DNA of 40,040 bases from positions 30,380 to 70,419 of the forward strand of contig MU001687.1 in the NCBI GenBank assembly GCA_010093515.1, given 5' to 3'. Position 1 is the first letter of the stretch. Every line of letters begins with the position of its first letter. Positions 3,778 through 40,040 of this stretch are shown here, piece by piece. The notes under the pieces were generated by a model that had not been told where the DNA came from, ran no database searches, and worked only from the letters and a program-made list of their open reading frames with translations. Both the position numbers and the translations under genes were made by a program. This DNA is from Lineolata rhizophorae. Lineage: Eukaryota > Ascomycota > Dothideomycetes > Lineolatales > Lineolataceae.

Positions 3778-3863
3778 CGCGCGCACCCCGATTTTCGCCC
3801 TCACGTCGCCGTCGCCCGCGACCCTCGTCCCCCATCCCCGCCCGTCCGCCCGCCGCCGCGAGC

Positions 3864-5208
<1,345 letters not shown>

Positions 5209-5490
5209 GGGCTCTCCCTCGCCTCGAAAGGCGCTGGGCGCGGCGACGCGCCCTCGGCGTCTGGGCCGGGGTGCGCTTGGAAATACCGAATCACTGATGA
5301 ATTCTCGCGTTCGCTGTTCGCTGTTCGCTGACGAGTGCACGTGCGGTCGGAGACCTCTCGTTTCGCCCCCTCCGGCGACGGACCACGGTTCGAATCGAAT
5401 CACATTGTGTATCTACCTGCAGCCCTACCATTGCGTCCGAAAAACATGCCGCAACCGACCGCCTCGCGCGAGCCCCACGTTTCGCGACGA

Positions 5491-7068: not shown

Positions 7069-7311
7069 GGCGGCCGGCGAACGGGAGGGGGAGTCGGCGA
7101 GCGTCCGCGGGCGGCTTTCTCCTTGCGAAGGACACGAGGGCGAGGGGAGCGACGGCCTGGGAAGCCGGCGGGGGGAGATGGCCTTCGGGGGGACGGCGCG
7201 GCCGCGGAGACACCCCTGCCTTTTAGATGCGTCAAGGATGCGTATCAGGGAAACATCGCGGCGCGCGAGACCCCACGGCGACCACGTAAGGCGATGAGCT
7301 GCCCGCCGCCG

Positions 7312-7565
7312 CTATCACGGACGTCGCCGCGACGCTCTCGACCGCTGGCGACGGCCCGACCACTGAGGACCCGCCTGGGCATCTCGAAGCGTGCCGGGGC
7401 GCCTCGCGGGACGGCGGCGCGGCGGCGCGGTGCCAACACCTACCCCACAAAGCTTATCGCGGCGTGGCAAAGCTTGGCCTCGACGTCTGCGGGGCCGCTC
7501 GCGCCGGGACGAGGGCGGCGGCGCGACGCACCGGCGACGGCCAATGGGGGCGGCGGCCGTTATCT
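7312..7565 (-). promoter_or_regulatory. Three HGATAR (AreA/NIT2-type) sites upstream of the ammonium transporter
   Basis: On the minus strand, TGATAG (7312-7317), CGATAA (7454-7459) and AGATAA (7560-7565) lie 244-497 bp upstream of the transporter ATG. HGATAR is the known binding sequence of the fungal nitrogen regulators AreA/NIT2, which activate MEP genes under nitrogen limitation. The region is shared with the divergent gene at 7899. Confidence 0.45.
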
Positions 7566-7748
7566 GGACGGGATTGGGTGGCGCGCGGATCGGCTCACAT
7601 CATGCGCCCTCGCCCGCGCCGACGGGCCCGAGGTGGAGAGAGAGAGAAGGCTGCGGCGGTCGGGGCGCCCCTCGACGGCCGCGACCAGAGCGCGCGAGAC
7701 GGGGGAGGCGGCCGGCGTGGAGGGCGACGCGCGGCGGCGGCGCGGGCA

Positions 7749-7756
7749 CATAAAAG
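7749..7756 (+). promoter_or_regulatory. TATA-like element of the gene at 7899
   Basis: cataaaag occurs about 145 bp upstream of the ATG at 7899, in otherwise extremely GC-rich DNA. It is the only TATA-like word close to that start. Confidence 0.35.
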
Positions 7757-7898
7757 GGACGGCGCCGTCGGGGCCAAGCTTCGGCCGCGCCGGCGCCGAG
7801 GTCTTGGCGCGAAGGCTTCGCTTCTCCCGTCGCCGCCTCTCGCCTGCGCCGCGCACCGCGATGCCACCCGCCTCGCACCGCTGCCCGCCCGCCCTCGA

Positions 7899-8270
7899 AT
7901 GAGCACGAACGCGCCGCGCCATCGCCCCGGAATGCTCTTCTCGTCCGCGCAGCCGTCTCCGCGCGCGGCCGGCGCCAAGGACGACGCCGACCGCGAGCCC
8001 CTGCTCGGCGGCCAGGACCCGCGCCGCGGCAGCCCCGGGGGGCCGAGCCAGCCAAGCTGCGACGCCAAGGGCGCCGGCGGCGGCTCGTACCGCTACGTCA
8101 GCCACGGCATCGGCGGCGTGGGAAACATGCGTGCGTACGCCAACTTCTCCGGCCGTCGCGCGCGCCGCGGAACCTTCTTGCTGACGGGGGCGGCGCGAGG
8201 CGCCGGGCGCGCCGGCGCAGACAAGGTCAGGGAACGCCGCGCCGAAGCCCGCGCCGGCGGGCCGTCGTGA
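7899..8270 (+). CDS. Small glycine-rich fungal protein, DUF3602-like
   Basis: Function unknown. Spliced model: exon 1 7899-8130, intron 8131-8220 (gtgcgt...gctgacg...gcgcag), exon 2 8221-8270, giving 93 aa. The centre reads YRYVSHGIGGVGNM, resembling the G-R/I-G-G-x-G-N motif of fungal DUF3602 proteins, which are small and disordered. The N-terminus has PLLGG and proline/serine-rich sequence. The intron is 90 nt, divisible by three and free of stops, so an unspliced 123-aa product using the same stop codon is possible. Diverges from the ammonium transporter over 830 bp of GC-rich promoter. The DUF assignment rests on one short motif. Confidence 0.55.
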   Translation: MSTNAPRHRPGMLFSSAQPSPRAAGAKDDADREPLLGGQDPRRGSPGGPSQPSCDAKGAGGGSYRYVSHGIGGVGNMRAYANFSGRRARRGTFLLTGAARGAGRAGADKVRERRAEARAGGPS

Positions 8271-8637
8271 AGCCATTTCGTCGCTCGGGGGGCCTTCGCG
8301 CGACGAGCGGAGGAGGACGGACGGCGTGTTTCCGTTCGCATCGATATCTGGGCCGAAAATTGACCGCTTGTTTTCCCCGCCGTGAGCATGAAGCGTGATG
8401 GGTTGCGCACGTAGAACCACGCGCGGGACCGGTGCGTCGGCCCGCGAGTCCCATCGTGAAGGAGTAGAATAGCTCTATATGCCCAGAAGCGCCGCGCAGG
8501 GTCGCCCGGAAACGCAGCGTGAAATCGAGGCCGGCCGGCGACGCCGCGGCTCTCATAGCATGTCTACACACGTGATGGCGCGCTCAAACGGTCTCCGACA
8601 ACGCCGCTCGCACCCGGAGGTCCGAAGCGCACCCCAA

Positions 8638-8697
8638 GAAAGAAAAAAACGCACGCAAAAAAAAAAAAGAAAGGAAAAGAAAAGAAAAGCGAAAAAC
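8638..8697 (-). other. A/G-rich tract in the IMP3 3' flank
   Basis: An almost pure A/G stretch on the plus strand (runs of up to 12 A) lies just downstream of the IMP3 stop, so the transcript sense is T/C-rich. It probably belongs to the 3' UTR or polyadenylation region. The convergent gene ends at 8270, leaving about 440 bp with no other gene. Confidence 0.5.
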
Positions 8698-8707
8698 TCG
8701 GCGCCCC

Positions 8708-9338
8708 TCACAGGAGGTCGAAGTCGTCCAGCTTGTCCCGGTACCGCAGGATGTTCCTCCTGATCTTGGACGAGTCGACCCAGGTGACGAAGTCCTCCAT
8801 GTTCCTGGCGCCGCGCGTCAGCCGACGGGGCCCGACAGGGGCGGACGGAAAGGAGAGAGAGAACGCACCTGGTGACGATGAAGGCCGGGTCGGTGACGAC
8901 GTCGGTGCCGACGCGGACGTGGCCCTGCTCGACGAAGCGGTTGGCGGCGCCCACGGCGTCGGCCATGCCCAGGCGGGTCATGACGACGGCGAGCCGGCGC
9001 CGGGCGAAGGCGCTGACGGTGAGGCGGCGCTCGACGTCGCCGAGCTTGCCCCTCCCGGCGCCGCCCGAGCCCAGGACGCCGAGGTCCCACAGCTTGCCCA
9101 GCAGCAGGTCCTCGTGGCGCGCGCGCACGGGGTCGGCGGGGTCGAGGCGCGCGAGGCGGTGGGCGAGCCGGCGCGCCGCGCCGCACAGGCGGTTGTAGGC
9201 GGCGTAGTCGGCGGGGCGGGCGATGCGGTAGCGGCGCAGCACGGCGGCCTCGCGGTGGCCGGGGCCGTCGGACCGGTAGGTGGCGAGGTCGACCTTGCGG
9301 AGGAGCTTGCGCTCGTGGTGCCTGAGCTTGCGGACCAT
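8708..9338 (-). CDS. imp3: U3 snoRNP protein IMP3 (S4-domain, small-subunit processome)
   Basis: Nucleolar protein of the Imp3/ribosomal S4 family that helps pair U3 snoRNA with pre-rRNA in early 18S processing. Exon 1 is 9338-8869, the 64-nt intron 8868-8805 has branch gctgacg, and exon 2 is 8804-8708; 188 aa, close to 183 in yeast. Family features: N-terminal [17 protein letters not shown], then an S4 RNA-binding domain (about 105-165) containing [13 protein letters not shown] and [10 protein letters not shown], and a C-terminus [19 protein letters not shown] ending LDDFDLL. Divergent to the yippee-like gene. Like DIM1 it has GTCACGTG and TATCGATA upstream, fitting joint control of ribosome-biogenesis genes. 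Confidence 0.94.
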
Positions 9339-9961
9339 GGCCGGCGTCGGCGGCGGGGGACGACGCGTTCGCGGCGGGGGGGTGGTGAGGCGGGGAGGGC
9401 GGAGAGAGCGCGCGGGTTTTGTGCGCCGGGCCGGGACAACGCGCCGCCGGCGCCGGCCCCGTGACTCGGCGCACGTGACCGGCCTCGCGGCTGCCGGCCG
9501 CCGCCTCCGCCCGCGTCCTCCTCCGCCGCCTCCGCGCGCCGCCCGCCGTCGCGCGCAGCGGCGCTGCCTCTCGCGCCGCTCCTCCCGCTCCCCGTCGCGC
9601 GCCCTCGTCCGCCGCCGCGCGGGAGCCGCGTCGCGCCGCGCGCGCGCTTCCGGCCGGGGCCGCCGGCGGGCTTATCGATAGGCCGCCGGCGAGGTCAGAA
9701 GACCGGGCCTCGCGGCCGGATCATCCTCCTCCCTCGGCCGCCCCCCCTCGCCCCGCGGCCCGCGGCCTCTTCGAGAGACGCCCTCCTGCCTCTCTCCTCC
9801 CACCCGCGAGCCGCTTCCGCGCCCTCCGGAGCCGTCGCGCTCGACGTCGCCAGCTTCGTCCGCCCGCGAACCCCGCCCATCTCGCCCTCCGCGCCTCCGA
9901 ACCCCCCCGACCGACGACCGCACCTGCGCCCGCGCGCGCTCGCGACCGACCGCCGCCCGCG
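9339..9961. promoter_or_regulatory. Shared divergent promoter of IMP3 and yippee-like gene
   Basis: 623 bp between divergent starts, very GC-rich. It holds CACGTGAC at 9472-9479 and TATCGATA at 9673-9680 (ttatcgatag). No TATA box is seen on either strand and no other gene is evident. Confidence 0.5.
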
Positions 9962-11143
9962 ATGCCCTTCCCGACGCTGCCCTCCCCTCCCCAAATCTTC
10001 ACCACCTACCTCACGCCCGGCGTCCCGTTCCGGCGGCGCTCGGGCGGCTCCGCGGCCACCGCCTCGCCCGCGTCTCCGACCGCCGCCGCCGCCGCCGCCG
10101 CCCCGCCGTCCCCCGCCGGCGACGACGACGACCACCACCACCACCACCACCACCGCCACCACGGCGACCGCCAACGGCGCCCCCCGTCCCCTCCCTCTTA
10201 CCTCTCCGGCTCCTCCTCGCACCTCCGCTGCGCCACCTGCCTCACCGACCTCTGCCTGACCTCGCAGATCATCTCCAAGGGTTTCACCGGCCGCTACGGC
10301 CGCGCCTACCTGGTCTCGCCGTCCGTCTCGGCCGTGCGCTCCGTCCCCGCGCCGGCCTGCGACGAGCCCTTGCTGCCCCCCTCGCCGCCGCCACGGCCCT
10401 CCGCCGACGGAGGCGTCGCCGCCGCCGCCGCCGCCGCCGCGTTTCCTCCCAGCCCGCCCGCGTCGCCCCCGTCGCAGCCCGTCCGGCCGGCGAGGCGCGG
10501 GTCCTCCCTCTTCGGGAGCCTGCGGCGCGGCTCGGGCACGGGCCAGGGCTGGCGCGGTTCGGCCGCGGCCGCGCCGTCGTCGCCGTCGTCGCCGTCCCCC
10601 GCCCCGGGCCCGGCCGCGGGCCGGGTGCGCAACGCGCGGGCCCGCGACGCCGACGCGCTGCCCAACACGCACGTGCACCGGGCCGTGCCGCGCCAGCTCG
10701 TCACGGGCGCGCACACCGTCAGCGACATCAGCTGCGCCGTCTGCGGCTCCGTGCTCGGCTGGAAGTACGTCGCGGCCGAGGACGAGGCCCAGCGGTACAA
10801 GGTCGGCAAGTTCATCCTCGAGACGAAGCGCGTCTGCCGGGGGGTGTGCTGGGAGAACGGCCCCGGCGACGGCCCCGGCGAGGAGGTGCCGCTGTGGGCC
10901 GGCGGCTGGGGCGACGGCGAGAAGGAGCGGAGGGAGAGGGGCAGGAAGAGCTGGGAGAGCGAGGGGGGCGCGGCCGGGAGGGGAGGGGCGGCCGGCGCGG
11001 AGCGGGAGGAGGACGTCGAGTTCGACAGCCAGGACGAGGACGAGTGCGAGGACCTGTTCGCCGGCGTGTGGAGCCCGGCGCTGGCGAGGAAGAGGAGGAG
11101 GAACAGGGGCGTGTGGGGCGCGAGGAGGGGGGAGGACGACTGA
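9962..11143 (+). CDS. Yippee-like zinc-binding protein with large low-complexity insertions
   Basis: Yippee/Mis18-fold protein; the yeast relative is Moh1, and yippee proteins are linked to GID-type ubiquitin ligases. Single exon, 393 aa, against about 110-140 aa for canonical members. The two zinc half-sites are CATC (C90, C93), followed by LTDLCLTSQIISKGFTGRYGRAYLVS, and CAVC (C258, C261), followed by LGWKYV and AQRYKVGKFILE. Canonical yippee spacing is CX2C-X52-CX2C; here 164 residues separate the pairs, so about 110 residues of Ala/Ser/Pro-rich sequence are inserted in the fold. The N-terminus has poly-Ala and a His-rich run. The C-terminus is charged (RKRRRNRG). Both core halves are well conserved, so the gene is probably functional. 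An intron around 10,330-10,600 instead of a translated insertion cannot be excluded. Confidence 0.88.
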   Translation: MPFPTLPSPPQIFTTYLTPGVPFRRRSGGSAATASPASPTAAAAAAAPPSPAGDDDDHHHHHHHRHHGDRQRRPPSPPSYLSGSSSHLRCATCLTDLCLTSQIISKGFTGRYGRAYLVSPSVSAVRSVPAPACDEPLLPPSPPPRPSADGGVAAAAAAAAFPPSPPASPPSQPVRPARRGSSLFGSLRRGSGTGQGWRGSAAAAPSSPSSPSPAPGPAAGRVRNARARDADALPNTHVHRAVPRQLVTGAHTVSDISCAVCGSVLGWKYVAAEDEAQRYKVGKFILETKRVCRGVCWENGPGDGPGEEVPLWAGGWGDGEKERRERGRKSWESEGGAAGRGGAAGAEREEDVEFDSQDEDECEDLFAGVWSPALARKRRRNRGVWGARRGEDD

Positions 11144-20484: not shown

Positions 20485-21317
20485 TCAAAGGATCACACAT
20501 TTCTGCGGCCCGTACTTCTTGTCGCGCGCCTCTTTCGGGACTCGGCCGGGGTGCGACGGGTGAGCGACCTTGCGCCCGGCTCGTCCACCGCCCGTGTGCC
20601 CCAAGCTGGTCGGATGCATGACGTTGCGGCGAGGATCCTGCGCCTTCCCTGACGACGCCTGATGCCGCTGTCGGCGCAATTGGCGCACGACGTCGTAAAA
20701 CGCCTTCTCCACGTTGATGCAGTTTTTGGCAGAGGCCTCGACGAACTCGCACCCCAGGTCCCTCGCGAGCGCGCTTCCCTCCTGCGTGGAGACCTCGCGC
20801 TCCGTGATGCGGTCGCACTTGTTGCCCACCAGCATCACCGGCGCGGGGCCGGGGGAGCCCGATCCCGCCGACGAGGAGCTCAGGGGCGAGCCGGGGTAGG
20901 TCGGAGAGCCGGAGTAGGAGGATTCCTTGACGCGCTGGATCTGGTTGTGGAATTTCTGGATGCGGGTGAAGGACGAGCGCGACGAGATGCTGTAGACGAG
21001 GACGAAGCCCTCGCCGTCGCGGATCCACTGGTCCCTCAGGGCGGTGTACTCCTCCTGGCCGGCCGTGTCCAGGACTTCCAACATGCAGGCCTGGCCGTCT
21101 ATCTGCACCTGCTTCCGGTACGAGTCCTCGATGGTGGGGTCGTACGTCTCGACGAAGTGGTTGAGGCAGAGCTGCAAGGCGAACGTTAGCCGGCGGCGGA
21201 CGGCGCCGGGCGGTGGCCAGGGGGGGGATCGATACGCACCTGGATGGTCAGGGCGGTCTTGCCGACACCGCCGTCCCCCAAGACCACCAGCTTGTACAGC
21301 GTCATTTTGCCCGACAT
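20485..21317 (-). CDS. ras2: Ras-family small GTPase, Ras2/RasB type
   Basis: Membrane-anchored GTPase signalling to cAMP/MAPK pathways, growth and morphogenesis. Exon 1 is 21317-21240, the 68-nt intron 21239-21172 (gtgcgt...gctaacg...ttgcag), exon 2 21171-20485; 254 aa. G1 is GDGGVGKT, switch [13 protein letters not shown]3 DTAGQEEY, G4 NKCD, G5 SAK; all key residues are present. A Ser/Gly/Pro-rich insertion of about 25 residues precedes VMLVGNKCD, as is common in fungal Ras2-type proteins. The basic hypervariable tail ends [11 protein letters not shown]. The CAAX box ends in Leu, which predicts geranylgeranylation, and there is only one Cys near the end, so no nearby palmitoylation site. 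MSGKMTLYK is the family's usual start; an upstream frame extension into GC-rich promoter is not supported. Confidence 0.96.
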
Positions 21318-22333
21318 GTTCGGCGGCCCGGGTCGCCGTTCGGCGTCGGCGGCGGCTCGCCGGGGGTGCGGCGGGAGGGTATGACCGTGCGAAATGGATG
21401 GACCCGAGACAGGCTCTGGGGCCTTCCGGGCAGTCCGGGCAGTGCTGGATCGGCGGCCTTGTCGACGGGAAGCCGCGGCGCGATGGCGGACGATGGTCGG
21501 AGCGGACGGCTGGAGCGGGCGGGACGAAGGGCCGCGAGAAGAGACGGGCGGTGCGAGCGTCGAGGCCCGCCGGGGAGGGGAAGGGGAGGAAGGCCGCGGT
21601 GGAGCGAGGCAGGGGGGGCGGTGCAGGCTGGCGAGAGAGGGGGGCGGCCGTCACGTGCGACCCACGTGGGCGAGGGAGGGAAAAGCGCGCAGGCACGGCC
21701 GGACGGCGCGACGGTGAGCCGGCGGGCGCGGGCTTGGCGGCGGCGCGGAGCGAGCAGCGCGTGGGGTCTCGGGGGGGGCGGCCGGGCGCCGGGCCTGCGG
21801 GCTCCTGCCGGGCGGCGGGCGACGGAAGGCGCGAGGGGCGGCGCGGGGCGTGCGGGAGGCAGCGGCGGGCGCGGCGGGCAGAGGCGGCGGGCAGAGGCAG
21901 CGCGAGAGGCGATGGGAGGGCGAGCGCGAGGGGAGAGCGAGAGAGGAGGGAGCGAGCGGCCGCGAGCCCAGGAGGCAGCGGCGGACGGGCCCCGGCCGTG
22001 GCCCGGCCGCGCCCGAGGCCCGTGGAGCCGGCCCGCCCCCCGCCCCCCGCCGTCGCCGCCGCCCATTGGCCCTGCAGTCGAGCGCCGCCGGCCCCGGCGG
22101 ACGGCCGGCCCGAGCGGCGCCCTGTCACGTGCGCGCCTGCCTGCGGGCGCGCCCCGCCGTCCCGCCGCCCGCGCCTTCGCCCTCGCCTTCGCCCTCGCCT
22201 TCACGATGCCGCTCCGCCGTCACGAAGTCACGCACGCACGCCCTGGAAGAGGAAATGCCGCTCCGGATAACTCTACACGAACGAGCGCAACCGCAAACTA
22301 AGGGGAGCCCCGCGAGCCGTGCACGCGCCGACC
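21318..22333. promoter_or_regulatory. RAS2 promoter/5' UTR and acyl-CoA synthetase 3' flank
   Basis: About 1 kb of extremely GC-rich, purine-biased DNA. CACGTG cores occur at 21652-21657, 21663-21668 and 22126-22131; the first and last are in GTCACGTG. A short 12-bp repeat (cttcgccctcgc, about 2.5 units) is at 22,174-22,203. Long open frames on both strands have Arg/Ala/Pro-dominated composition and no domain, so I do not call a gene. Confidence 0.5.
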
Positions 22334-24644
22334 TCACAGCTTCGCCCGGCCCTCGGCCGCCTTGTGCGTCTCGCTGCCCCCCCGCGCGAAGTACTCCTTG
22401 ATCCGCCCCCGCGCCACCTCCACCACGTCGGCGTCCTCGATCGTCGACGGTATCTGGACCGCCTTGTCCGGCTCGCCGTGTACCGCGTTCTCCACGAGCT
22501 CGCGCAGCACCCGCCTGAGCGTCTTGCCGCTCCGCGTCTTGGGGATCATGCCCCTCCCCTGGATCATGCCGCCGAGGCTCGCGATGGGCCCGATCTGCTC
22601 GCGCACCGCCCGCTGCACCTCGTCGAATAGCGTCTTGTCCGGCACGGCCGCCGTCGGGTGGTCGTGCCTGGCCAGCGCCACGAAGGCGAAGGGGAGATGG
22701 CCCTTGAGCGAGTCCGGAACCCCCACCACGCAGCACTCGGCCACGTCCGCGTGCGACGTGACGGCCTGCTCGATGGCCCCTGGTTCGGGCGCCAGTTACC
22801 CTGTGCTCGGCCTCACGACGGGCTGGCCCGGCCCGGGGGTCTTTCCACTTACCGGTGCTGAAGCGGTGCGCCGCCACGTTGATGATGTCGTCGGACCTAG
22901 ACATGACGTGCACGTAGCCGTCCGCGTCCACCATGCCGGCGTCTCCGGTATCGATCCATCGGCCTTTGAACCGCCTCATGTAACCCTTGTAGAATCTCTC
23001 TTCGTCTCCCCAAAGGGTGTTGAACCCCGTCGGGGCCAGAGGTATACCCAGCACGATGTTTCCCATGTTCCCCTTCGCCACTTCCTCCCCATCGTCGTCC
23101 ACGACGCGGACATCGAACCCCGGCATCGGTTTCCCCGCCGACCCGGGCTTCGTTGGCAGCGGAGCGATGGCCCCTGAGCGGTCCGACACCGCCCCTGTCT
23201 GCAGCGCCAAGCCGCTGATGGGCGATCCAGACTCCGAAGACCACCAGTTGTCCACGACCATCGCTCCCTCCGCGCAGTGTTTGGCCAGGAGTCCCTGGAA
23301 CATTCGCACGATGCTCGGCTCGCTCCTCTCGCCGGCGAGGAATAGGGCCCGCAAGGTTTTGAGGCCGCCTCGGTTCCCGCGGTCCTCGATGTACGTGTTG
23401 TCGCCGTCTTCTCTTCGGATCGCCCGCAAGGCAGTCGGCGCCGTGAACATGACGTTCACCTTGTATTCGTCAACAATTCGCCAAAACGTCCCGGCATCCG
23501 GCGTGCCGATGGGCTTCCCCTCGAAGAGGACCGTGGTCGCTCCGACGAGCAATGGGGCGTAGACGATGTAGGAGTGGCCCACGACCCAGCCGATATCCGA
23601 GGCGCAAAACATGACGTCCCCAGGCCCTCGTATCCCAAAAAGATACTTGATGGACAGGTTCAGTCCAACCGCGTGCCCGCCCGCATTCCGAAGCACCCCT
23701 TTAGGAAGGCCGGTCGTACCTGCGAGCATGTCAGAAACGGTCACGTTGGCGTCGGGGTACTTGTCATGTCGAACCGCTCGTGTATATGATGTACAGGCCG
23801 TCGTCGCTATTCACCGGTACGGCACCAGCCTTTACTCCTCGATCCTTTGCGCTCTCGACCAGGCGCCGCCAGTCACGTTCGCCTTTACCCTCGGAGATAG
23901 GATCCCAACGAAGCTCGTCACGCTGCCAGACAAGGACCCGGTCCGGCTTGAAATTGCTCTTCCCGACCGCGCCTTCGATCAGGGGTCTATAGCCCATTGG
24001 ACCTTTGGAACCTTCGATACCGCATGACGCCGTCATCACGACGCGAGGCTTGCAGGCCTCGAGCCTTTGGGCCAGTGCCGGAGGTGAAAACCCACCAAAC
24101 ACGACCGAGTGGATCGCTCCAAGACGCACGGCCGCAAGCATCGCGAATACCGCCGCCGGTATCATGGGCACTATGGTATGTCAGACGGCGATGCTCTCAG
24201 CTCAGAAGCCGCGGCGAGCGTCCTACGCCATGCATCAAGTGGGGCGAGAACGGTGCGGGCCATACTATAGATCAAAACAACGTCGCCCTTTTTGACGCCC
24301 TCTTCACGCAAAGCGCCCGCCAATGTTTCGACCTCCTCTAGGAGCCGAGCGTACGTGAAGCTTTCCTTGCGTCCTGAAACGGGGCTATCCCACAGGATGG
24401 CAGGGACGCCCCCATTTCCCCCTTCAACGTGACGATCGATACAGTTATAGGCAGTGGAGATCTGCCCGCCCGGGAACCACGACCAATGGGGGTGAGTGAT
24501 GCCGTTGCGGAGCGTTTTGGTCCGGGTTTGAAGAGCTCTGGACGGTCTTTTGTACCAGTGCAGCTGAGACGCCTGGCAGCCCCAGAAAGCTTCCGGGTCT
24601 CGCAGTGCCTTGTCATATATCTCATCTTGTGGATGGGGCGCCAT
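22334..24644 (-). CDS. Short-chain acyl-CoA synthetase, propionyl-CoA synthetase/ACSS3 (PrpE) type, with PTS1
   Basis: ATP-dependent acyl-CoA ligase of the ANL superfamily, probably activating propionate or a similar short acid. Exons: 24644-24266, 24170-23775, 23719-22853, 22779-22334; introns 95, 55 and 73 nt; 695 aa, phase kept. Features: N-terminal ACS domain (FWGCQASQLHWYK, then NCIDRHVE), GAIHSVVFGGFSP, the P-loop-like YTSGTTGLPKGV formed across intron 2, DIGWVVGHSYIVYAPLL, DNWWSSESG, WIDTGDAG, and the catalytic-lysine segment PKTRSGKTLRR. The C-terminus AKL is a type-1 peroxisomal signal, so peroxisomal location is inferred. The 5' site of intron 2 is an unusual gttcga. The start was chosen downstream of the TATA box at 24769; an in-frame ATG further up would lie at or before the expected mRNA start. 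Confidence 0.92.
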
Positions 24645-24775: not shown

Positions 24776-25308
24776 CAAGAACAAGCAAACGCTGGCCGAG
24801 GGGTGTACCTATCGCAGACACCGTGCCGGGGCTGCGGGAGCACTGCGGTTCCGGGCGAAGGGGCTGGCGCGAGGGGAAGCTCGGCTATGGCGCCGCAACG
24901 CGGCGCCATTGGTCGGGTGGTCGGCACTTCGGTCCGCGAGCGCACACCTCGGGAATGGCCTCCAGCGCCGGGCCCCAGCCCGCCCGGTTTGCCGGCTTTC
25001 CGGTGGCCAGCGTGATGAACTTGGTACGGAGTGCTCGCGGCGCGCGACTCCCTTCCGCTTCCTAGGGCCCCCCACGCGGTCAGGGCCCCGCAATACGTAG
25101 CACGTACCTAGGATCCCAGGGTTCCCCATGGGTCAAGCTCAGTAACTACTCCCTGCGGACAATATATTCACGAGTCACGTGAAATGTGGCAGTGTTCTTG
25201 GCACCACCACAGAAGCTACAATCTGGTGATAGGGCCCAAATGAAGCCGAAGTAGTACATAGAAGCCTATATATAAATCTTTTCTACGAGTATTATGAGAT
25301 TAGTTGTC

Positions 25309-25338
25309 CATCAGTGATCAATACATCAGTGATCAATA
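25309..25338. repeat. 15-bp tandem duplication (catcagtgatcaata x2)
   Basis: Two perfect adjacent copies, 25309-25323 and 25324-25338, within the AT-rich block just after the composition change. They could be a footprint of a mobile-element event or replication slippage. Confidence 0.9.
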
Positions 25339-25851
25339 ACACTATTATCCAATCTAAATGACCACTAATAAAGAGCCTCAAATTGTACTTTTTCGGCACT
25401 AGTTTACCATGATAATTGTAAATATCCTCCTTATGGGTTTAGTCCTTCAAATACTTCTATATCGGCTCTATCCTGTTGGATCAAGGCTGCGAGTAGGGTA
25501 ATTTACCGTACGAACTCTAAACTTATTACGAGGAGTATTATCCTTGATTATCCAGACTCCTTTTCCTATTTCTAGACAACTATGTTAGCATACACGATCC
25601 CTAGCCAGCAGGATCGCACTTCAATGTGATACTGTGCCAGTCTTTTAGCCAAGTTGGCTAGTTGCAGGCTAGGGCATGCTAGTTCTAACAAGTGGTCTTG
25701 CCGTTATTCACTCTTTACTCCTGTTCTCTTTTCTTCAAAGGCTAGTTAGCATATAGTAGTTGCCTCGATGCCATGAAGACGTGACTCCTCCTTTGTTCTT
25801 CTGTTCTATTTCGAGGTAAAGCGCTCTACCCAGCTTACAGTAGGGACTTGT

Positions 25852-26238
25852 CCTATAACCCAAAGCAATAAAGCGTTCGTATTCTTAAATAGGAGGCCAT
25901 AGACGATTATATCGTACTTCGCCTCGTAGACGCGATACGTAGAGAGGAAGTATATATTTAGCTTGCTCGAAAACGGTCTCGCCGGAGTAGATAAGAGGGT
26001 TATAGCACCTTGTTATTTTTTATAAAGTTATCCTTTTACCCAGTAATTACCTAGGCTAGGAGTTCACAAAAGGAATTGCCCAATTTACAAGGGCTTTCCT
26101 AAGAAGCCTATATCCTAGCTCAAGGGTAAGCTTCTTTAGAGACCTTCTTCTTGTAACTCCTTGCTTATAGAGAAGCTTTTCTAAAGTTATTCGAGGCAAG
26201 TAGATATCGTACTATTTAGATACCTCCTTGGCAATACG
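25852..26238 (-). pseudogene. Possible DNA-transposase relic (helix-turn-helix part)
   Basis: The minus strand, read in one frame across stop codons, gives KTYKRIAKEVSK, YDIYLPRITLEKLLYKQG and VTRRRSLKKLTLELGYRLL. This resembles the N-terminal helix-turn-helix region of Tc1/mariner-type transposases. Stops are TAG/TAA and fit C-to-T changes. No DDE motif was recognised downstream, so the family is uncertain. Confidence 0.3.
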
Positions 26239-26659
26239 CTTATAGGTCTTATCTTTATTTGCTTTGGATTCAAAGACCTAGGTTTTGCTAAGTTTTGCTA
26301 AGAAATTCTAGCTATATATACCTTGTGGTAGAGAGCTTCTAGAATTTTAGTACCCTCCTATTTCTTAGGTCGTCTAGATCTAGACTTATTACCTAGAATA
26401 TATAACGTGATACGAAGCCTTTCGTGTGGGGTGGGGGCTGTGTTGTAGTTATTCTACTCTTAATAATATTGCTCTGGATCTGTTAATCAAGCTTCGATTC
26501 GTTAATAGAGAGTTTATATACTATTTGGAGCAGACTGGATAATATTGCTTATTTTAGTCTACCCTATACTAGCTGAAACTCTTTGGATAAGAGAAAGCTA
26601 GCGGGATTGTGGTATATTGAGGTACAAGATTTACTATAGAAGGCTCACATGATTTCGTA

Positions 26660-27600
26660 TATTTATTAATGATTGGGCCCTAAAGTATGTCAGGGGCCTC
26701 GGCTCGCCCAGATAGGGGGCCGAGCTCCCTAGTGCCTGAACGTGACCCACTACTGTGTACAGGAGTAGAGTCCCCGCAAACTGTGAGGGGTGGGGTCAGC
26801 CCCATCGGGTTTTGGGGTGAATTTTCCGAAAGAGTCTAGTAGTTACCTAGACAGGAAACTTACCCCAAGAAAACCCCAAAATTTCTGGGGTTTACGGTCC
26901 ATCCCCCCTTGTAGACCATACCGCAAACCATAGACTCTTTTGGCAAGCAAGCCCCGGGGCATCGTGGTGGGAACCTTTCATATCGTCTAAATGAAAACCA
27001 ACTCACCCCCTGTGAAGAGCCCACGGGATGGGCAGTTGATAGGTTCTAAGTTTGGCAGGTCCAAATATTCTCGGCGAGCTAGTGGGTCAATTCCCGCTTT
27101 ACAAACCCATCAAGAAATAATAGTTATTGAGATCCATCTTGTGAATTAAAATTTAAATTTTTGGGTAGGGTCGCCAAAAATCCTGGCAAACCCCAATCAG
27201 ATTTTGGGTGGGACCCCACCGGCCCCTCAAACGGGCGCCTAGGGTCCTCTTTTGGAGGAGTAGTTAGGGTGTCCGGGTGCTCGAAATACGAGAAGTCGTA
27301 TGTGAAATAGAATTTGCTTGGGGGTAGATATAGTTTTAAGTGGGGCTGATCTCATTAGGGTTTAGGTCGGGTTTTCCCTTTAGGTTTACCCCCTTTCTCA
27401 CCCCAGTGTAAACCATACTTATCTCTATACTATGCCGAGGGGCCTCGGTTTTCCAAGTTATCTATAAGACTTCATTTTATTATATCGGTCGAAATTATTG
27501 TCCACCATGGGGTTTTGGGGTGGGTATTTTAGGTAACGATGAAAATCCCACCCCATCAGGGTTTCCAAAAAAGCTTCTTCTCCTCACCCCATCGTGGAAT
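26660..27600. repeat. Zone of dispersed G-rich repeats (ggggttttggggtg type)
   Basis: Related words recur on both strands: gggttttggggtga (26807-26820), aaaaccccaaaatttc (about 26,868), ggggttttggggtggg (27509-27524), ccaccccatcaggg (about 27,549) and caccccatcg (about 27,576). Their arrangement in both orientations suggests the subterminal repeats of a non-autonomous element. Several runs could form G-quadruplexes. No terminal inverted repeat with a target duplication could be fixed by eye. Confidence 0.5.
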
Positions 27601-28150
27601 ATAGAAATAAGCATGCAGAGCACAGAATGTACGGAGCACTGGGGCGGCAGAGGAGCCTCCCAGGTTTTTGTACACGAAATAAAATCTGCCTGTGCGTAGC
27701 ATGCTGGGAACTTGGCGTGGAGACGGCACGAATATTCATAGGAGGCGATGAGATAAAATAGCTATCCTTATACTTTATAATTCTCTTGCACGTGATAATT
27801 ACCACCTTTATCCTAAATATGAAAGGAAAAGGTAGATTAACCAGCTTAGCAACGTTGTCGGATGTAGGCTTAGTTTACCAACCCTTGACAATTGGATTTG
27901 GCCTACCGGAATCTGTCAAACCGGGGAGCAAGCTTTGCCGGGGGCAAAGTCATGTAGAAGATAACCAAAGAGGACAGCAAAGAAAACTTGGGAAGGGACC
28001 TAATATAGTAGTGTGTATAGGACCAAAGAGCCCGCGAAGCCCTCCTATACGCGTCTACGTCGCTGCGGGTGGAAACATCTTCGAGAGATAGCTAAATACG
28101 GGGCGACGGCTACTAGGGCCTTGCAGTTGTTCGTTGAGATAGTGGTACAT
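27601..28150. other. Unassigned stretch before the inverted-repeat cluster
   Basis: About 550 bp of mixed composition. An open frame of 101 codons at 27786-28091 (+) has no recognisable domain and no conserved context. I do not call it a gene. Confidence 0.5.
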
Positions 28151-28508
28151 ACGCTAGGAGGATGGGCTCCTAGCGTGCGATCGTGGTAACAGCCACCGAT
28201 CGCAACTAACGTTGCTAGCAGCAACTTTGCACAAAGCCTTTAGGAGGAACCTTCGCTTTTTATGTGCCCGAGCAGCATGATAACCTTTCTCTACGTGCTG
28301 GAAGTGATCACCGAGCCAAGCCCCAAGGGCCCCACTCCGTACAGAGTTTTTACCTCGACACCGACAGTACGACATCACGGTAGCACCGACAACGAGCCGC
28401 TCCACTGCCTTTCGTAGGCAGGCTAGTTACTGCCTGTAGGCGCAGAGTAGTGTAGGCACTCTGGTAACTATAGGCCTCTTTATCGACAGGCACGCGGGCG
28501 AGGCCTAT
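28151..28508. repeat. Cluster of short inverted repeats upstream of the captain relic
   Basis: Perfect pairs are acgctaggag/ctcctagcgt (28151-28160 and 28167-28176), gttgct/agcaac (28211-28216 and 28220-28225), and ataggcctc/gaggcctat (28470-28478 and 28500-28508). Between them actgcct (28404, 28429) and its complement-like taggca/taggc (28415, 28437, 28453) alternate. cgatcgtgg/ccaccgatcg near 28,177-28,203 is a further imperfect pair. Such half-site iteration is what a DNA-binding recombinase or repressor site looks like. Confidence 0.6.
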
Positions 28509-29186
28509 AACTATGGGCGGGCAGGTAGCTAGCAACGAAGCAGCTCACAGAACACGACAGGGTACCTGTTGGCTGCGAGTTACAATGGAAGTCAAGGTCG
28601 ACAAACTGCCGCAAGGTTTTTTCATTCATTTGAGGGGCTTTTCCTTGCACCGCGCACCTATAGAAGCACCCTATAGGCAACGGCCTGTACGGGAGTAGGA
28701 GTCAATGACAACGCACAGGCCAAGAAACGCGACTTTAAAGAATCTAATAGCAAATTAACCCCTATTTTCAGCGGTTTGTGACGCCCTTTTGGGGGTAGAC
28801 TTGCCAACCTGTGTGCCAATCGTTCGCCTTCGGTTTCTGCGTGGCGTAGCTGCGCCGCATAGTGCCACATCTCCAGCTCTTAGATTCAAGCTTCTGCCTC
28901 CCAGCTTCTTACTCCTTCGATCAAGGACGGCTTGAAATCGACCAGCATTTCTGCCAGGTCAGTGCCTTTCCAATAGCCCCACTTAAGACCTTCCCGTCTC
29001 CTTTTATCACTATTCATTTTCAACCTACTTCACTCTTCTACCTCTCGCGCATCCTCTCCACTGCCTTCATCGCTCGTTCTCTCCACCGACTTCACCGCCC
29101 ATCCTACTTCGCCCTAGCCACCCTCCTCTACTTGCTTTACTCCGCCTACTCTCCTCCTTGCGATCATACCAGAGGCTCGAACCATC

Positions 29187-31611
29187 ATGAGCTACTGTCC
29201 GTCAGACTCCAGCTCATCTCAAAGTTTGGCGCAGAGCAACTCCGGGTTAGGAGATGACGCGAGCTACGAAGCGGACGTAATGGATGTTGCGGACGTTAAT
29301 TCGGACACTGATTCGGATGCTGTCAACGACGGATCGTTCGCAGAGTCGGCCTGGCTCTTAACGGATAACGCACATCCGCCGGAATACTATGTTCGCTAGA
29401 GGTAGGAGTCTGATGAGTTAGAGTATGCGGAGGACTACAGTCCTGGCGCAACCCTCTTACTTGACCTGATTGAAGAGCAATGGTTCTAGTAGGTCGCTTA
29501 CGTTTTGCCGTAGTAGATGACTAAGATATTCTAATACCGTGATAGATTCTGCGAGTACGTACAACGGAACCCTTAGAAGATGTACCGGAACGTGTCTCTA
29601 GCTCTATTACATAGCTTTTTCGACTGGATGTTGAATCAGAAAATAGGCAAGGGAGGGAGGAGAATGCGTGGTACCAAACATAGGAGTTCTCTGGGCGCAT
29701 AGTGGAAGCTATATCGTCTGATGTATGAGAGAGCTACTGGAGACAAGATCACGGGCCAGGTGAACTGTGGCATGCATAAGGTACCTGTACGTACCTGGAC
29801 AAATGAGCTCACTGCTAATAATCTGCATTAGGTGCTTCATAAACTCGCAAAGAAGCATGGTTTGCGGGAACAAGGCCGGGAAAAGCCGTGCATGTACGTC
29901 GAAGACCTCAAGGAAGTGCTTCGAACAAACTTGACCACAACGAGAAAGCGGTATTCATACGGTCAGCTTCGCATGCAAATGCGAATATTCATGCAACTAG
30001 CCGGGTTCACTGCGAGCCGGCCTAAAGCACTGCACAATCTCTGCTACCGATACATAACGGCTGCATTACTGCGGGATCAAGGAGGCCGCCCTCATTAGGA
30101 TCTTGCTTAAGTTCACGTTCGAATTCACAAAGAACTTCCTCGGGTGAAAGATGTGTATGAAAAACCTAGTACTCAGAACACTGATTCCACTAATGACGTG
30201 AACAGCAACACTTTTCTAATCCCAGAGATCGTTTACGATCCCTCCCTTATTTTCAGCCCCCATGTGACACTTCTTAGCATAATGTTTAACGACCAAGCCT
30301 TTGCCCCACCTAGCCTAACGTGCCCAAGGAAGCTTAGTAGACTAGACATTGAGCTAGGCTCTAACCAACTACCATTGCATTTTAAAGAAGAGAGGTTGAA
30401 CCAGCCACTTTTCCGACGCGCCAAGGGGATACTTCACTGCTGGACTATTTCCGCCGACAGACCCTTGACATACGCGTTCCTCAACCTGGGTATGAAGAGT
30501 ATCGGCCAGATCACCCGGCCTAAACAAGTCACATGCACATATGCGCTCCGATACGGTGCGGGCAAAGCCTTCAACGAGGGTAGTTAGCATTCTTCTCTAC
30601 TAGAATAGCCTTTATTAGAGATGCTGATACTGATTGTGCTACATGTGTAGGCAAGGTCAGCGAGGCGGTACAGAACCCGATGATGCAGCACGCTGATATT
30701 CAAACATTCCTCAGACCCCATCTCCATAGGCTGGTTACGGCGGACACTGCGGCAATTATCGAACTAGATCCTCAGGAATCGGTCATGCTGTCTACCTTCA
30801 ACATGAGCAGATGGATTGACCCGGACAGGCTCTGGGGCCTGACCGCGGAGCAAGCAGAATATATGAATAATGCTCCCGTCATTCTCTCCCTTACCCAGCG
30901 GCGGGTAAAACTCAAACAGCGCCTTCAGCGGAAGGCTATAGAGCATCCAAAGTACAAAGCGCTGGTTAGGAGAGTCGCGAATGAGAAGGAGCGCCTAAGG
31001 GCTACACTGTTAGCGGAAATTCAAGAGATATATGAAAGAGGGCAGCCAGTAAGAATTATCGAACGGCACCTCGCTGGCGTGAAGCTGAACAGTGAACCGA
31101 AGGTAGCGTCCTACTTCTCGGAAGACACGCTTCCAGGGCAGCGACGTTTAACTGAGACGATGATACTCGCTCCACCAGTGGCAGCTCTCGAGGAGGAGCT
31201 TGAAAGACGGAATAATGCGATCACCGCTGTCACGGCGTACTGCAAAATCGAGGAAGGCGACATGTGCGAGAGACGAAAGCGTTCGGGCGCCGACACCAGG
31301 CTGTGGTAGTTAATGAGGACCCTCCGTCGCCAGCGGACGAAGCGTTGAAGGTAGCCATGCTGTCGGTGTGTACTACAGATCAACAAGGGAGGCCAACGAT
31401 ATGCTTCATGTATCTGGGCAACGAGAGGGCACCATTCAACACGCGTCTATTCTTTCAGCAGGCCTGGCGACCTGAGCAAGCACTTCAATAAGAAGCATTT
31501 GAAGAGAGTCGAGGAAAATGAGGATCCGGAATGCAAAATCTGTAGATGTCGCTGAAGCACAAGACGCATTTACAGAATCACGCGGCTAAGATTCATAGGA
31601 CTACTTCCTGA
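29187..31611 (+). pseudogene. Degraded DUF3435 tyrosine recombinase (Starship captain family)
   Basis: Family role: DUF3435/YR enzymes cut and paste Starship elements, and the gene is normally the first at the 5' end of the element, pointing inward. Spliced reading: exon to 29780, intron 29781-29831 (branch tgctaat), exon to 30579, intron 30580-30650, exon from 30651. Family blocks: DYSPGATLLLDLIEEQW, MHK then VLHKLAKKHGLREQGREK, CMYVEDLKEVLRTNLTTT, LAGFTASRPKALHNL, IPEIVYDPSLIFSPHVTLL, then YALRYGAGKAFNE and QNPMMQHADIQTFL, which carry catalytic-type R and H (RxxH...HA). The end has a CxxC...H-type finger (CKIC, HKTHLQNHAAKIH) in shifted frames. Eleven in-frame stops precede intron 2 (for example 29397, 29403, 29487, 29511, 29574, 29700, 30096), nearly all TAG, and frameshifts fall after 31,250. 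It cannot make a full protein. Confidence 0.88.
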
Positions 31612-32246: not shown

Positions 32247-34756
32247 ATGTCTTTATCTGAGTTCGATATGTCGTCCCTACCAGCAACAATCCTCAAAGGG
32301 TTCACTCCTCCACAGACTGAGAGTCGTCCAGGCAGTCCTTCTCTGCCAGCGACTCAGCAATTCCTTAGCTCAGCGTACGCCGAGAGACTCGTCGACTTGG
32401 TCAACGATATCGTCACGGCAGCGTAACAATGGAAGCCTGCCGTAACAAAGAATGTCCCCGCTGTTCCGCCTAGCACTCCCATAGGTTCTCTGCCAATGAT
32501 CGTTAGAGCGCTGGTACCAAACCTAGAGTACCGCACTGTCCAAGAAATGTAAGCTTCTAGATGACTTAAAGCGCGCATTGGACTGAGCTGTGCTAGTTGG
32601 GACAAGAAAGCATACAAGTACAAGGTCGTTGAGTCGTCAACAGCCGAAGAGGATGATAGTGATGTGTTGGATTAGTACATTTTTATTGTCCGGGAACGCA
32701 TTGGTTAGTATCATGTCCTCTTCAGCTTATTTCTCGTCGTTGACAATAGATACAGACAAGAAAACCCAAGATCCTTCGTACTTTATCGATGTTAAATCAA
32801 ATAAGTTGAGGGATATCCTCAGAATTGTTCTTCGTCGTGTTCGAGGAATTTCCCTAAAGGGGAACAAGCCTCCAGTACGCTTGACTAAACGTCCAGTTCC
32901 GTACATTATATAGCTTACTGTCTCTTGGGTTGAGCAGAACCTGCTGTACAGCTACGTTGCTGAGCTGGAAGCGCATTACGGCACGATGGATTCCTCACCA
33001 GGGAATGATATACCAAAAAAGCACCTCAGCGTCTTGCTCGATTTCATCAAACGTACCTACGCTTCTACAACTGAGCGACTGGTGCCGCTACTTGATGGTG
33101 GCGAGATCACCTACGATCTACTCTGGGCGTTGTTCAAACCGAACACTGAAGTATATGCGAATTGTCCTGAGATTGACCGACCTAGATGCGTCAAATGCAA
33201 CTTCGGGGAAGAGAGGGAGCGCACTAATCGCACCAAGTATTTCCATCTCGAGTGCCGGTACCTTGAGTGGGATGGTAAGCTGTTAGGTGAGTCAACAGTT
33301 GTTTTCGAGATTGAGAGATTTAGGGGTGTGAAGAGTATCTCCCTTCTCAATGCATTCCCTCTCAAGTACCTGCCAAGTGAGAGAGAAGCGAGAACGGAAC
33401 TCATCAAGAACGGCCGGAACTTCCTCTCCTATAGAAGCACTCACCATGTTCAGTACCACAGGCTTGCATTTTACAGAGACAAATATGGGACGCCAGTCAG
33501 TGTGTCAGTAGACGGTCGCGTAATTGTTGATGCTGCCTATTTCAGAAAAGTCAATCCGAATTTCCGCCTCTCAGCGGTCGAGTCGTCGCGCCGTACCACG
33601 AATGATGGCCTTCTGCCACCGCCGCCGCCGCCTCCTAGCGAAACTGGCCAAGTTAAGAATGCAGACGTGGACGTCAGTGGAATGAAAGATGAGGAGCTGC
33701 TTATTTGCAGCCCTGTTGTGTATGGCTTTAGCTTAAAAGACAAACTTTGGGTCAAGTCGTCAAAGGGCACACGTCGCACACGCTAACAAGGGCAGTTGGT
33801 TTCGCGGTTGCGAATATTCGGCCTATTTCATGGAATCCTGGATCATTCGCTCACCTAGCAATCCCTCGAGATAAGAAAGATATGCTTAGAGCTGTCGCTG
33901 AAGCGTACTCAGGTGGGGACTCAGGGCCAGCCTTTGACGACTTTATTCAGGGGAAAGGCCGCGGTCTTATCACCCTCCTACAGTTGGTTTCCCTATTGTC
34001 TAGTAATTTCGGTTCTAACTTTTGAATCAGCGGGCCGCCTGGCGTCGGCAAAACTCTCACAGCTGAGGCTTTATCGGAGCTCCTTTGTTTACCTCTATAC
34101 TCGGTAAATCTTCCATCTCTGACGCATAGTATATTACTAATAATACTTGCAAGATTTCCGCTGGCGAAATCGTGAGCTCTGGAGATCTGGAAGAGCAGCT
34201 TTCTCGCGTCTTTGAACTGGCGAGTCATTGGAAAGCACTACTACTCCTCGACGAGGCCGATGTTTTTGCTGAGCAACGTGCTGTGCAAGACATCCACCGT
34301 AACAAAGTCGTTTGCACGTTTTTACGAACGCTGGAGTATTATGAGGGGATCATGTTCCTAACGACAAACCGAGTCAAGACTTTCGACGACGCCATTACAA
34401 GCAGAATTCATATGATGCTGAAATACGAACCCCTCTCCCTAGTTAATCGCGTAACCGTATGGGAAGGATTCCTTCGCAAAGCAAACGCCGAGTACAAGAA
34501 AAAGGACCTCGAATGGCTTGCCAACAAGCTGTTCAATGGCCGAGAGGTAAGGCCGCGCTTGTATACATTTAATCTTTGACGAGCAACTAAGGTTTTTCAG
34601 ATCAAGAACATCGTGAGGATGGCGAGTGCTCTCGCCGGACATAAAGATGGAAGACTCTCGCTGCCTCAACTAAAGGTCGCAATCGCTATGAGGGAAGAAT
34701 TTGAGCGGGATTTCAAGGGAGCTGGTGCGATCGAAAGTCAGCATGGATATGTTTAA
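32247..34756 (+). pseudogene. AAA-family ATPase with N-terminal DUF7025 region, broken
   Basis: Fungal AAA ATPase of the DUF7025 type; cellular role unknown. Exons inferred: 32247-32548, 32597-32703, 32750-32895, 32938-33750, 33796-33982, 34031-34103, 34154-34546, 34601-34756, with introns of 42-54 nt. N-terminal part: WDKKAYKYKVVE, YIFIVRERI, KLRDILRIVLRRVRGISL; middle: FEIERFRGVKSI, HHVQYHRLAFYRD, VDGRVIVDAAYF; AAA module: Walker A GPPGVGKTLTAEA, Walker B LLLLDEADVF, sensor FLTTNRVKTFDDAITSRIH. Damage: TAA at 32424, TAG at 32673, and a one-base frame loss just after the intron at 33751-33795. A TAG at 32911 probably lies in a 42-nt intron and need not count. Both stops fit C-to-T change (CAA/CAG). 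It lies in the cargo position after the captain relic. Confidence 0.85.
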
Positions 34757-36692: not shown

Positions 36693-37761
36693 CTATTCTC
36701 CCATGACCTTTGGGTCCTTTTGTGCCTTGCGAAGAATCTTCTTCATCTGTGAATACATCATTCTGTCTTCGCTCCGCTCCCGCGGTTTGTCCATTGGGAA
36801 GACAACTTTCCGCAGCATATTAACCCAAGGAACCAACGGCTGGTAATAGGGCGTGAAATTTTCGGTTATCCGATTGAGGAAATGCCTTTCTATACTCACT
36901 AGGCCGGACTTCAACTCTGCTAACTCTTCCGTGTCCACATAGTTTCATTTCTCAAACCGTGGGACGACTCTACCGTTGTTTGGGCCGTCATAATGAATGC
37001 AGATCCAGAAGAGCACCTAGAAAAACGACTCAAGATCGTGCATGAACGAATGCCTCTCGCCTAGAAGTACCCTAATAGCCGTGAAGGCTCTGGTCCCTGT
37101 CTTTCCTCGTGCCCCGGAAGGTTCTTCGCGGTCTTCTTTGATGGCGAGATCGAGGGCAATCAAGAATGAGCACCAAGAAAGATTTTGTTCGTCCTCGTTT
37201 ATGATGAGGTTATTCGGTGAGATACTGCGTTGCAGCATGCCGGTCCGTGTGTGCAACGACTCGTACCCTTCATGCAGCCTTCCAGCGCAGCCAACAGGGC
37301 TGTACGAGAGCTTGCTTTGTAGATAGCGGGAGCATATCTCCTAGCATTCTCGTCCCTTGAGAACCAACAATCCTACTTTTAATGGCCTACTGGAGTTGAT
37401 TATATTTGTCGAGCTACCAGTCTTGGTTACCATTGGCATGCCTCTGCGCTGCCGGCTGTATTCGGAGACGTTCTAGAGGTGAGGGATGCAGGTAATTGAG
37501 GGAGCGGGGAATCTGTTATTCGGATCGGATCGTGTTCGTCGAGTCGAGGATAGTCCGAAAGTAAAGGGCTGTCTGCGTCTTCATGACGAAAGAGAGCGTG
37601 CCGAGAAGAACGACTCTTACGAGCTCCGCAAGGACAGGCTGGTTCTTCGCGTGATCGATACTAAGTAGTGCTTCTCGAAGGTAGTTGCTGAGATATGTAG
37701 CGTGCTCGCGGGTTTCGTTCGGCCATGCTAACTCCTTAGGCCACTGGAGAGTCGCTATCAC
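36693..37761 (-). pseudogene. FunK1 fungal-specific protein kinase, degraded
   Basis: FunK1 (fungal-type protein kinase) family; role unknown in general. Read from the right: LGTLSFVMKTQTALYFRTIL with LDSTNTIRSE (37516-37761), then RGMPMVTKTGSS with RPLKVGLLVLKGREC in other frames, then RTGMLQRSISPNNLIINEDE as catalytic loop (S replaces the usual D of HRDIS), IALDLAIKEDREEPSGARGK with TGTRAF, and HSFMHDLESFF. Stops at 37017-37019 (TAG) and 36945-36947 (TGA) sit where the family has Trp (FFWVLFWIC and KWNY), both G-to-A changes as RIP makes. The C-terminus PYYQPLVPWVNMLRKVVFP is still recognisable. The whole kinase is present but broken in several places. Confidence 0.82.
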
Positions 37762-38247: not shown

Positions 38248-39119
38248 ATGCGTACATTTGTAGCCTGCGATCACACCAGCCCGGACGGCCCGGACAGCGA
38301 AGCAGGTATCAACCCTCAGGACCTCGTCTTCAATGGCAAGCCTGTCTCTGTCAAGGAGCTTAAAAAAAATGCCAATATTATACAGGGGAAGGGCGAGTTC
38401 CTCGGGGGGGAGTGACGGGACTTGTAGAACGTCTTAAGTCGGGAGATGTTATCAAGTCTCCTTGGACGGGCCGTCCAACAGCATCAGATTGCAGGCAAGA
38501 GATGGCGATCGAGGCGCAGATATACGAGAGACTTGGAGCACATCCCCGACTGGTACAACTCAAATACTGGGATCCCGTCGACTACACATTAACGCTAGAA
38601 TACATGCCTCACGGCAATCTCATGGAATACGTTAAGAAGTATGGACAAAAGATATCGCCAGCCCAGAAGCAACAATGTGTTATGAAGGCTAGTGAGGGTA
38701 TTGAGCATCTACACTCCCATGGCGTTATTCAGGGTGATATCGGGCCGCACAATTTTCTGCTGGATATCGATCTTAGTCTTAAGATCTGTGACTTCGGCGG
38801 GTCTTCCTTGGATGGCTCGCGGGCTACGGTTGTTCCGGGAGTGAGATACAGGCTGCCGAGCGTAGCTGAGAGACATATCCAGTCGGCGACGATCAAAGAG
38901 GACCTTTTCGCTTTAGGCTCGACAATCTACTTTATCGCCACCGGGCATGAGCCGTATAACGAGCTAACTGACGAAGACCAGGTGGAGAAACTCTATAAGG
39001 ATAGAGTGTTTCCGGAACTGAGCGGTGTGCCCTTCGCAGAGGTTATTGCACTATGCTGGAGACAGGAAGCCGAATCGGCTAAGATGATCATCGAACTCGT
39101 CAAGCGCTCATCGGCCTAA
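38248..39119 (+). pseudogene. Fungal protein kinase with a single-base frameshift
   Basis: Small protein kinase of a fungus-specific group. The N-lobe starts at ATG 38248 and runs to GKGEFLGG, where a run of seven G (38404-38410) breaks the frame. With eight G the reading would pass straight into VTGLVERLKSGDVIKSPW, giving the glycine loop and the ATP-binding lysine. The rest is intact: LEYMPHGNLMEYVKKYG hinge, catalytic loop VIQGDIGPHNFLL (QGD instead of HRD), CDFGGSS (DFG kept), LFALGSTIYFIATGHEPY, and CWRQEAESAKMI at the end. No intron can explain a one-base shift. It is either a young pseudogene or a homopolymer sequencing error. Confidence 0.78.
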
Positions 39120-39791: not shown

Positions 39792-40008
39792 CAGGATACT
39801 TCGCGGGCAGCCAATAGCCAAGCAGACTGTCCCAAATTCGGAATCAAAGCTTAAACTCAGCACTCCGGTACCTAACATACTCTAGGGATACGACCACTAT
39901 GAGGGTATTTCCTTATTTATCTCTATAGGAAAAAAATGTTGTGGCTAACAAATACGATCTAATGTACACATTTTCCGCTCTCAAATTCAAAAGCGATAAC
40001 GTATTCCA
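39792..40008. other. Right-end intergenic sequence
   Basis: About 220 bp, AT-rich towards the end. No gene, RNA or repeat was recognised apart from the terminal tandem repeat listed separately. Confidence 0.5.
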
Positions 40009-40040
40009 CCACCGAGTCGCTCACCCCACCGAGTCGCTCA
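40009..40040. repeat. Beginning of a 17-bp tandem repeat at the window edge
   Basis: ccaccgagtcgctca occurs at 40009-40023 and again at 40026-40040, spaced by two bases. The array may continue beyond the window. Confidence 0.7.

Follow-up and report, generated by a model that had tools for sequence, protein, structure and literature searches.

The window analysed here, 40,040 nt of Lineolata rhizophorae DNA (assembly GCA_010093515.1, contig MU001687.1, 30,380 to 70,419 of the forward strand), holds a real captain-type tyrosine recombinase gene that is dead. It is a DUF3435 pseudogene on the plus strand (main frame 29187..31309, 631 codons when spliced), whose likeliest interpretation, with a probability of about 0.5, is that it served as captain in a Starship now derelict. 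The assembly comprises 30.97 Mb in 48 contigs, of which the window represents C18:30380-70419. Pfam scans were performed with the open frames and with all six frames of window 25.0-40.0 kb, and were complemented by a genome-wide family search, a comparison of paralogues, composition and RIP indices, genome repeat searches and a reading of the flanks.

A dead DUF3435 recombinase gene

In the Pfam scan of open frames, two plus-strand frames, 30111-30587 and 30584-31309, matched DUF3435 (PF11917) with E values of 5e-40 and 7e-37; their scores were 138.1 and 127.7 bits, compared with a curated cut-off of 25.8 bits. A search of the organism's own genome covered the profile at this locus in two pieces, 1-213 (192.6 bits, E 1e-55) and 212-418 (126 bits, E 1.8e-35). 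These matches are far beyond chance, and the gene is a member of the DUF3435 family. An earlier note, made from the letters alone, had described DUF3435 blocks in order on this strand and had named the Pfam profile as the way to check them; the profile, now run, bears out the description far above its cut-off. An ATG is present at 29187. The six-frame scan of window 25.0-40.0 kb detected no recombinase family besides PF11917, and no other Pfam domain from 25.0 kb up to the recombinase. For the recombinase, no further information came from scanning nine ORFs with NCBIfam. No recombinase was matched when the two recombinase ORFs were used to search solved structures (E up to 10): one ORF matched 10 sequences, all of them eS25 ribosomal proteins (best E 0.0016), and the other matched nothing. 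Among 44 pattern matches in viral contigs and 71 in prokaryote genome contigs, none encoded a relative of the recombinase.

As judged from splice signals and reading frame, the pseudogene most likely has four introns, and all four sites are also breaks in the alignment with the paralogue on contig C27. The earlier note had claimed two introns, without coordinates. Two are indeed easily seen: a probable GT..AG intron at 29781-29831, which is in frame and where the C27 alignment breaks too, and a probable GT..AG intron at 30580-30650, which separates the YxxR motif from the nucleophile helix and has a matching C27 break between L024 8516 and 8582. The total of two did not stand, as two more introns are likely. 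One of these probable introns (29489-29545, 57 bases, GT..AG) has a CTAAT branch-like motif and agrees in phase and aligned place with a gap in C27 that runs GTGAGT..AG. The other (30155-30205, 51 bases, GT..AG with CTAATGAC) would be in frame and free of stops, and the C27 alignment breaks at that place. The spliced reading on the plus strand thus gives exons at about 29187-29488, 29546-29780, 29832-30154, 30206-30579 and 30651-31309.

This splicing changes the number of stops. The raw frame from 29187 to 30587 contains 13, and setting aside those at 29829 and 30585, which are intronic, reproduces the eleven in-frame stops counted before. Four of these eleven fall inside the intron 29489-29545, so that the five exons, joined unaltered, retain seven internal stops (five TAG, two TAA and no TGA) and a terminal stop. 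Past 31309 the C-terminus runs on in other frames, as had been proposed: the remains at 31310..31611 on the plus strand include pieces (31216-31488 and 31355-31552) that match the corresponding part of the C27 copy. We read these remains as possibly zinc-finger-like, a reading that is without a profile match.

The Y-x-x-R motif is intact. At the place where the C27 paralogue shows a Tyr in the aligned TFLKHYL, the window recombinase has a His, as seen with this one aligned paralogue, and this His lies 36 residues past the Y of Y-x-x-R. The nucleophile Tyr is Y458 in Sanctuary and Y416 in HhpA, 34 and 35 residues past the YxxR tyrosine, in the account given in PMC12506042. If the alignment is right, the His occupies the place of the nucleophile and the protein would be non-functional even without the stops. 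The catalytic set of YxxR and nucleophile Tyr thus appears incomplete, which would mark a loss of function and not another family. With seven internal stops, a frameshifted C-terminus and the apparent change of the catalytic Tyr to His, the claim that the gene is inactive holds.

The evidence that RIP is behind the stops is suggestive only. Five of the seven internal stops lie in the first two exons, which are nearest to a RIP-like repeat arm (binomial p 0.02, in a test chosen post hoc), and none of the seven is a TGA. The composite RIP index is weakly RIP-like in the N-terminal part of the recombinase (+0.17) and is not RIP-like in the 487 bases before the gene (-0.20), its middle (-0.12) and its C-terminal part (-0.53).

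The low-GC island and its borders

A bounded low-GC island of about 20 kb, which extends from window 25.2 kb to contig 75.6 kb, houses the recombinase close to one of its sides, with the gene oriented inward. In steps of 200 bases, the GC content drops at around window 25.2 kb to values of 0.34-0.56; on the other side it lies consistently above 0.5 between about contig 75.6 kb and 78.2 kb. Low GC by itself is not special, since eight of 78 two-kb blocks outside the island also lay below 0.515 GC (sampled 180 kb; blocks with 500 or more N dropped). GC-rich gene DNA flanks the island on the left, and its last gene is an AMP-binding (acyl-CoA synthetase) gene (AMP-binding E 3e-32). A fossil giant transposon had been placed next to this gene; the gene does bound the island, and the giant transposon is only plausible. 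The right flank comprises, in order, histone H4 (minus strand, read directly), a plus-strand core histone gene (Pfam Histone E 1.3e-37), which is probably H3, and a RasGEF gene. PMC12289983 gives a size range of 15-700 kb for Starships; the island of about 20 kb is not demonstrably a single element.

Elsewhere in the window, a NACHT/NPHP3_N NOD-like receptor frame of 535 aa is located at 378-1985 on the minus strand, about 23 kb outside the island. A perfect 9-base tandem repeat of 15.4 copies (4743-4881) lies in frame within a KsgA/Dim1-type rRNA dimethyltransferase ORF (4051-5208), to which it adds a Gly-Asp-Asp run. Very GC-rich gene blocks, with about 67-80% GC per kb, are found at 3000-11000 and 21000-23000.

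Both ends of the island are repeat arms, and the two arms have repeats in common. The left arm (25200..28701) is AT-rich and RIP-like in composition, and contains dispersed repeats; three blocks between 25.2 and 28.7 kb gave composite indices of +0.57, +0.12 and +0.52, and the right arm (contig 72.2-75.5 kb) gave +0.28. The middle, from 28.7 to 40.0 kb, has a GC content near 0.49 and is mostly without a RIP-like index, the exceptions being the N-terminal part of the recombinase and 39.1-40.0 kb (+0.04). An LTR-like unit of roughly 110 bases, which starts with TGTTAG and has a CTAACA-like end, is located at 25583-25690 (39/44 matches listed, on 23 other contigs; 40 of 118 candidates scored). 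A repeat of about 70 bases (about 25,760-25,835) has relatives in the right arm at C18:73107-73176 and 73899-73966, which are 77-81% identical; no further copy was found among the matches listed (40 of 118 candidates scored). This arm repeat is not a clean terminal repeat.

Between the left arm and the ATG lie 485 bases (28702..29186, read on the plus strand), which begin where a repeat common with contig C1 ends (28701) and which had no second match among those listed (40 of 118 candidates scored). The former 5' edge of an element would have lain near 28.7-29.2 kb, with 28702..29186 as its likeliest place. The distance is comparable with the gap of about 350 bp reported from captain to 5' edge in Sanctuary (PMC12506042). 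Neither border of the island showed a clean terminal repeat, direct or inverted. The longest inverted match had 12 bases, compared with a mean of 11.9 in 40 first-order Markov controls. Among the direct matches, those of 18 and 17 bases exceeded the control maximum of 16; the matches of 14-18 bases sit in repeats shared by the arms, namely the LTR-like unit and the repeat of about 70 bases. With search zones of over 4 kb at the borders, short target repeats are indistinguishable from chance, and 1,650 N mask part of the island.

To the right of the recombinase, the first recognisable gene is a broken DUF7025-AAA ATPase gene on the same strand (32268..34579; PF22942 9e-29, PF00004 9.5e-9), broken as judged from its frames and stops. 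Its DUF7025 part is located at 33085-33375, its AAA part begins at about 34026, and the gene start given, 32268, is a guess based on reading. Next, on the minus strand, comes a FunK1-type kinase of which a C-terminal fragment with one stop remains (36999..37271; profile 297-387; PF17667 4.9e-29 and 1.1e-29), and then a plus-strand protein-kinase ORF of 251 aa (38364..39119; PF00069 9e-25), 392 bases of which are 85% identical to C11:14376-14767. At the end of the window begins a multi-copy DNA transposon, whose left terminal inverted repeat (39994..40040, plus strand, 45-47 bases) has many identical copies elsewhere. Its inverted partner is at contig 72116-72156 and its body falls in the 1,650 N (contig 70420-72069); the copies elsewhere show repeat pairs about 1.75 kb apart. 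The island is therefore a mosaic, in which RIP-like arms enclose the recombinase, the broken ATPase gene, the kinase remains and a nested TIR transposon.

Genome searches returned 10 matches for DUF7025 and 33 for FunK1, so neither is specific to the island. Stops occurred in 11 of the 33 FunK1 (PF17667) matches (17 TAG, 2 TAA and 1 TGA, some of which may be intronic), and this TAG excess is what CpA-to-TpA mutation would give. DUF3723, ferric reductase, patatin-like and NLR gave no match at E 0.05 in window 25.0-40.0 kb and contig 72.1-80.4 kb, and DUF3723 was not found in a genome search, which was run without a positive control. In the part of PMC12134995 that deals with the Starships of Gaeumannomyces, most such accessory genes are given as absent, except for one putative NLR.

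Paralogues of the recombinase and comparison of their surroundings

The genome search with PF11917 yielded 11 matches, which we grouped into at least eight loci. The whole DUF3435 domain is covered at only two of them, the window locus and C27, and the C27 paralogue has three stops in the aligned exon parts. The six remaining loci are partial: five contain one to five stops each, some of which may be intronic, and the C9 locus is a stop-free fragment (profile 84-209). No intact DUF3435 copy was seen among these at least eight loci. The nearest paralogue is that on C27, whose identity to the window copy rises from 29% in the N-terminal part through 37-39% in the middle to 41-43% in the C-terminal part. 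A second DNA copy of the captain was not found among the matches listed, a weak result since the window's own locus was missing from them too.

Surroundings were compared for seven stretches from six other DUF3435 loci, with only 1 kb covered for C9 and the locus on C1 left out; two further stretches came from C38 and C11 and do not represent DUF3435 loci. No convincing common cargo was found in the seven stretches. Beyond the recombinase, the island shares with them only the LTR-like repeat, in C17, and two protein-level matches that are weak: one of 29% over 75 aa at the C27 end (E about 4e-4) and one of 31% over 42 aa in C17 (E about 5e-4), from 203 queries. The earlier note had taken the DNA on the right as candidate cargo. 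Broken genes and repeats are indeed present there; they form a mosaic, and cargo convincingly common to other loci did not emerge.

A derelict Starship or a solo recombinase

The derelict Starship reading draws on the orientation of the recombinase into the island, on the bounded island itself and on the stretch of 485 bases that separates the ATG from the left arm, all of which fit a captain. It is also backed by the match to the whole PF11917 profile, by a gene structure like that of the C27 paralogue and by the broken DUF7025-AAA gene, which comes first downstream on the same strand. The lack of clean edge repeats, the failure to find DUF3723 (in the search without a positive control) and the lack of convincing common cargo count against a Starship. 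The kinase, FunK1 and repeat pieces of the island have relatives scattered genome-wide, as expected of a repeat graveyard. Of the proposal that a Starship captain stands here at the 5' end of its element, the identity of the recombinase and its decay are thus confirmed; the captain role is plausible only, as no clean border repeat accompanies it.

The gene resembles Starship captains such as HhpA of Hephaestus and that of Sanctuary, as these are presented in PMC12506042, in its full-length PF11917 domain, its YxxR motif and the spacing of the Tyr position (36 residues vs 34 and 35); unlike these captains, it carries stops and frameshifts, has a His for the last catalytic Tyr and is without demonstrated borders. 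Solo DUF3435 genes and derelict Starships have both been described (PMC12134995, PMC12289983, PMC11623301, PMC11905480, PMC12506042), and degraded captains beside former cargo are treated as derelict Starships in PMC11623301. With the latter the locus has in common a mutated captain-type gene, a transposon-filled region and RIP-like arms, but it is without cargo shown to be common to a known element. Like the solo genes discussed in PMC12134995, it has a single recombinase and no demonstrable element; the difference from them is its place in a bounded low-GC island, where broken accessory-type genes follow it.

Nearly as likely as a derelict Starship is a solo DUF3435 gene, or a fragment of one, among unrelated dead genes in intergenic DNA rich in repeats, with an ATPase and kinase that were never cargo. 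DUF3435 genes are more usually solo according to PMC12134995, and PMC12289983 cites 10,628 orphan captain-like genes compared with 143 Starships. In this genome, unrelated repeats form a mosaic around the recombinase, and among the at least eight DUF3435 loci six are partial and the other two, in the window and on C27, are broken. However, a gene may count as solo only because its borders escaped detection, a caveat raised in PMC12134995, and a recombinase near one side of a bounded island, pointing inward, is less readily explained by a solo gene.

Two further explanations carry little weight. A Crypton or another cargo-free tyrosine-recombinase element would use recombinase chemistry of the same kind, according to the literature; this origin is nevertheless very improbable, because the match is specific to PF11917, the sole recombinase family in the six-frame scan, and the two groups are only very distantly related in the description of PMC12134995. 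The chance that the gene is alive under another genetic code, in which TAG encodes an amino acid, is close to nil. Five of the seven internal exon stops are TAG and none is TGA, as such recoding would have it, but TAA is present as well, the gene has frameshifts and has apparently lost its catalytic Tyr, the NACHT frame of the window terminates on TAG (one case seen), and the standard code leaves long host frames open.

Under the derelict Starship reading, we infer that the recombinase once headed a mobile element, with the broken ATPase and kinase genes as its cargo. From the published mechanism of captains, the live protein would have cut and rejoined DNA at the element ends, moving the element together with its cargo. 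Stops, C-terminal frameshifts and the loss of the catalytic tyrosine would then have silenced the recombinase, and other transposons and RIP-like mutation may have filled and eroded the surrounding 20 kb or so, so that neither border is recognisable. More doubtful is the wider proposal that the whole island of about 20 kb is one derelict Starship, inserted with the acyl-CoA synthetase gene on one side and the histone H4 gene on the other and carrying ATPase and kinases as cargo, in a genome whose recombinases of this family have all been destroyed and whose Starships may have been purged.

If the locus is a derelict Starship, it would add one more fossil insertion and would mark a former insertion site between conserved genes. 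With at least eight DUF3435 relics, among which no intact copy was seen, this genome would be a modest case of Starship inactivation. Orphaned and broken captain copies have already been described, and a specialist should be surprised neither by the fossil insertion nor by the inactivation.
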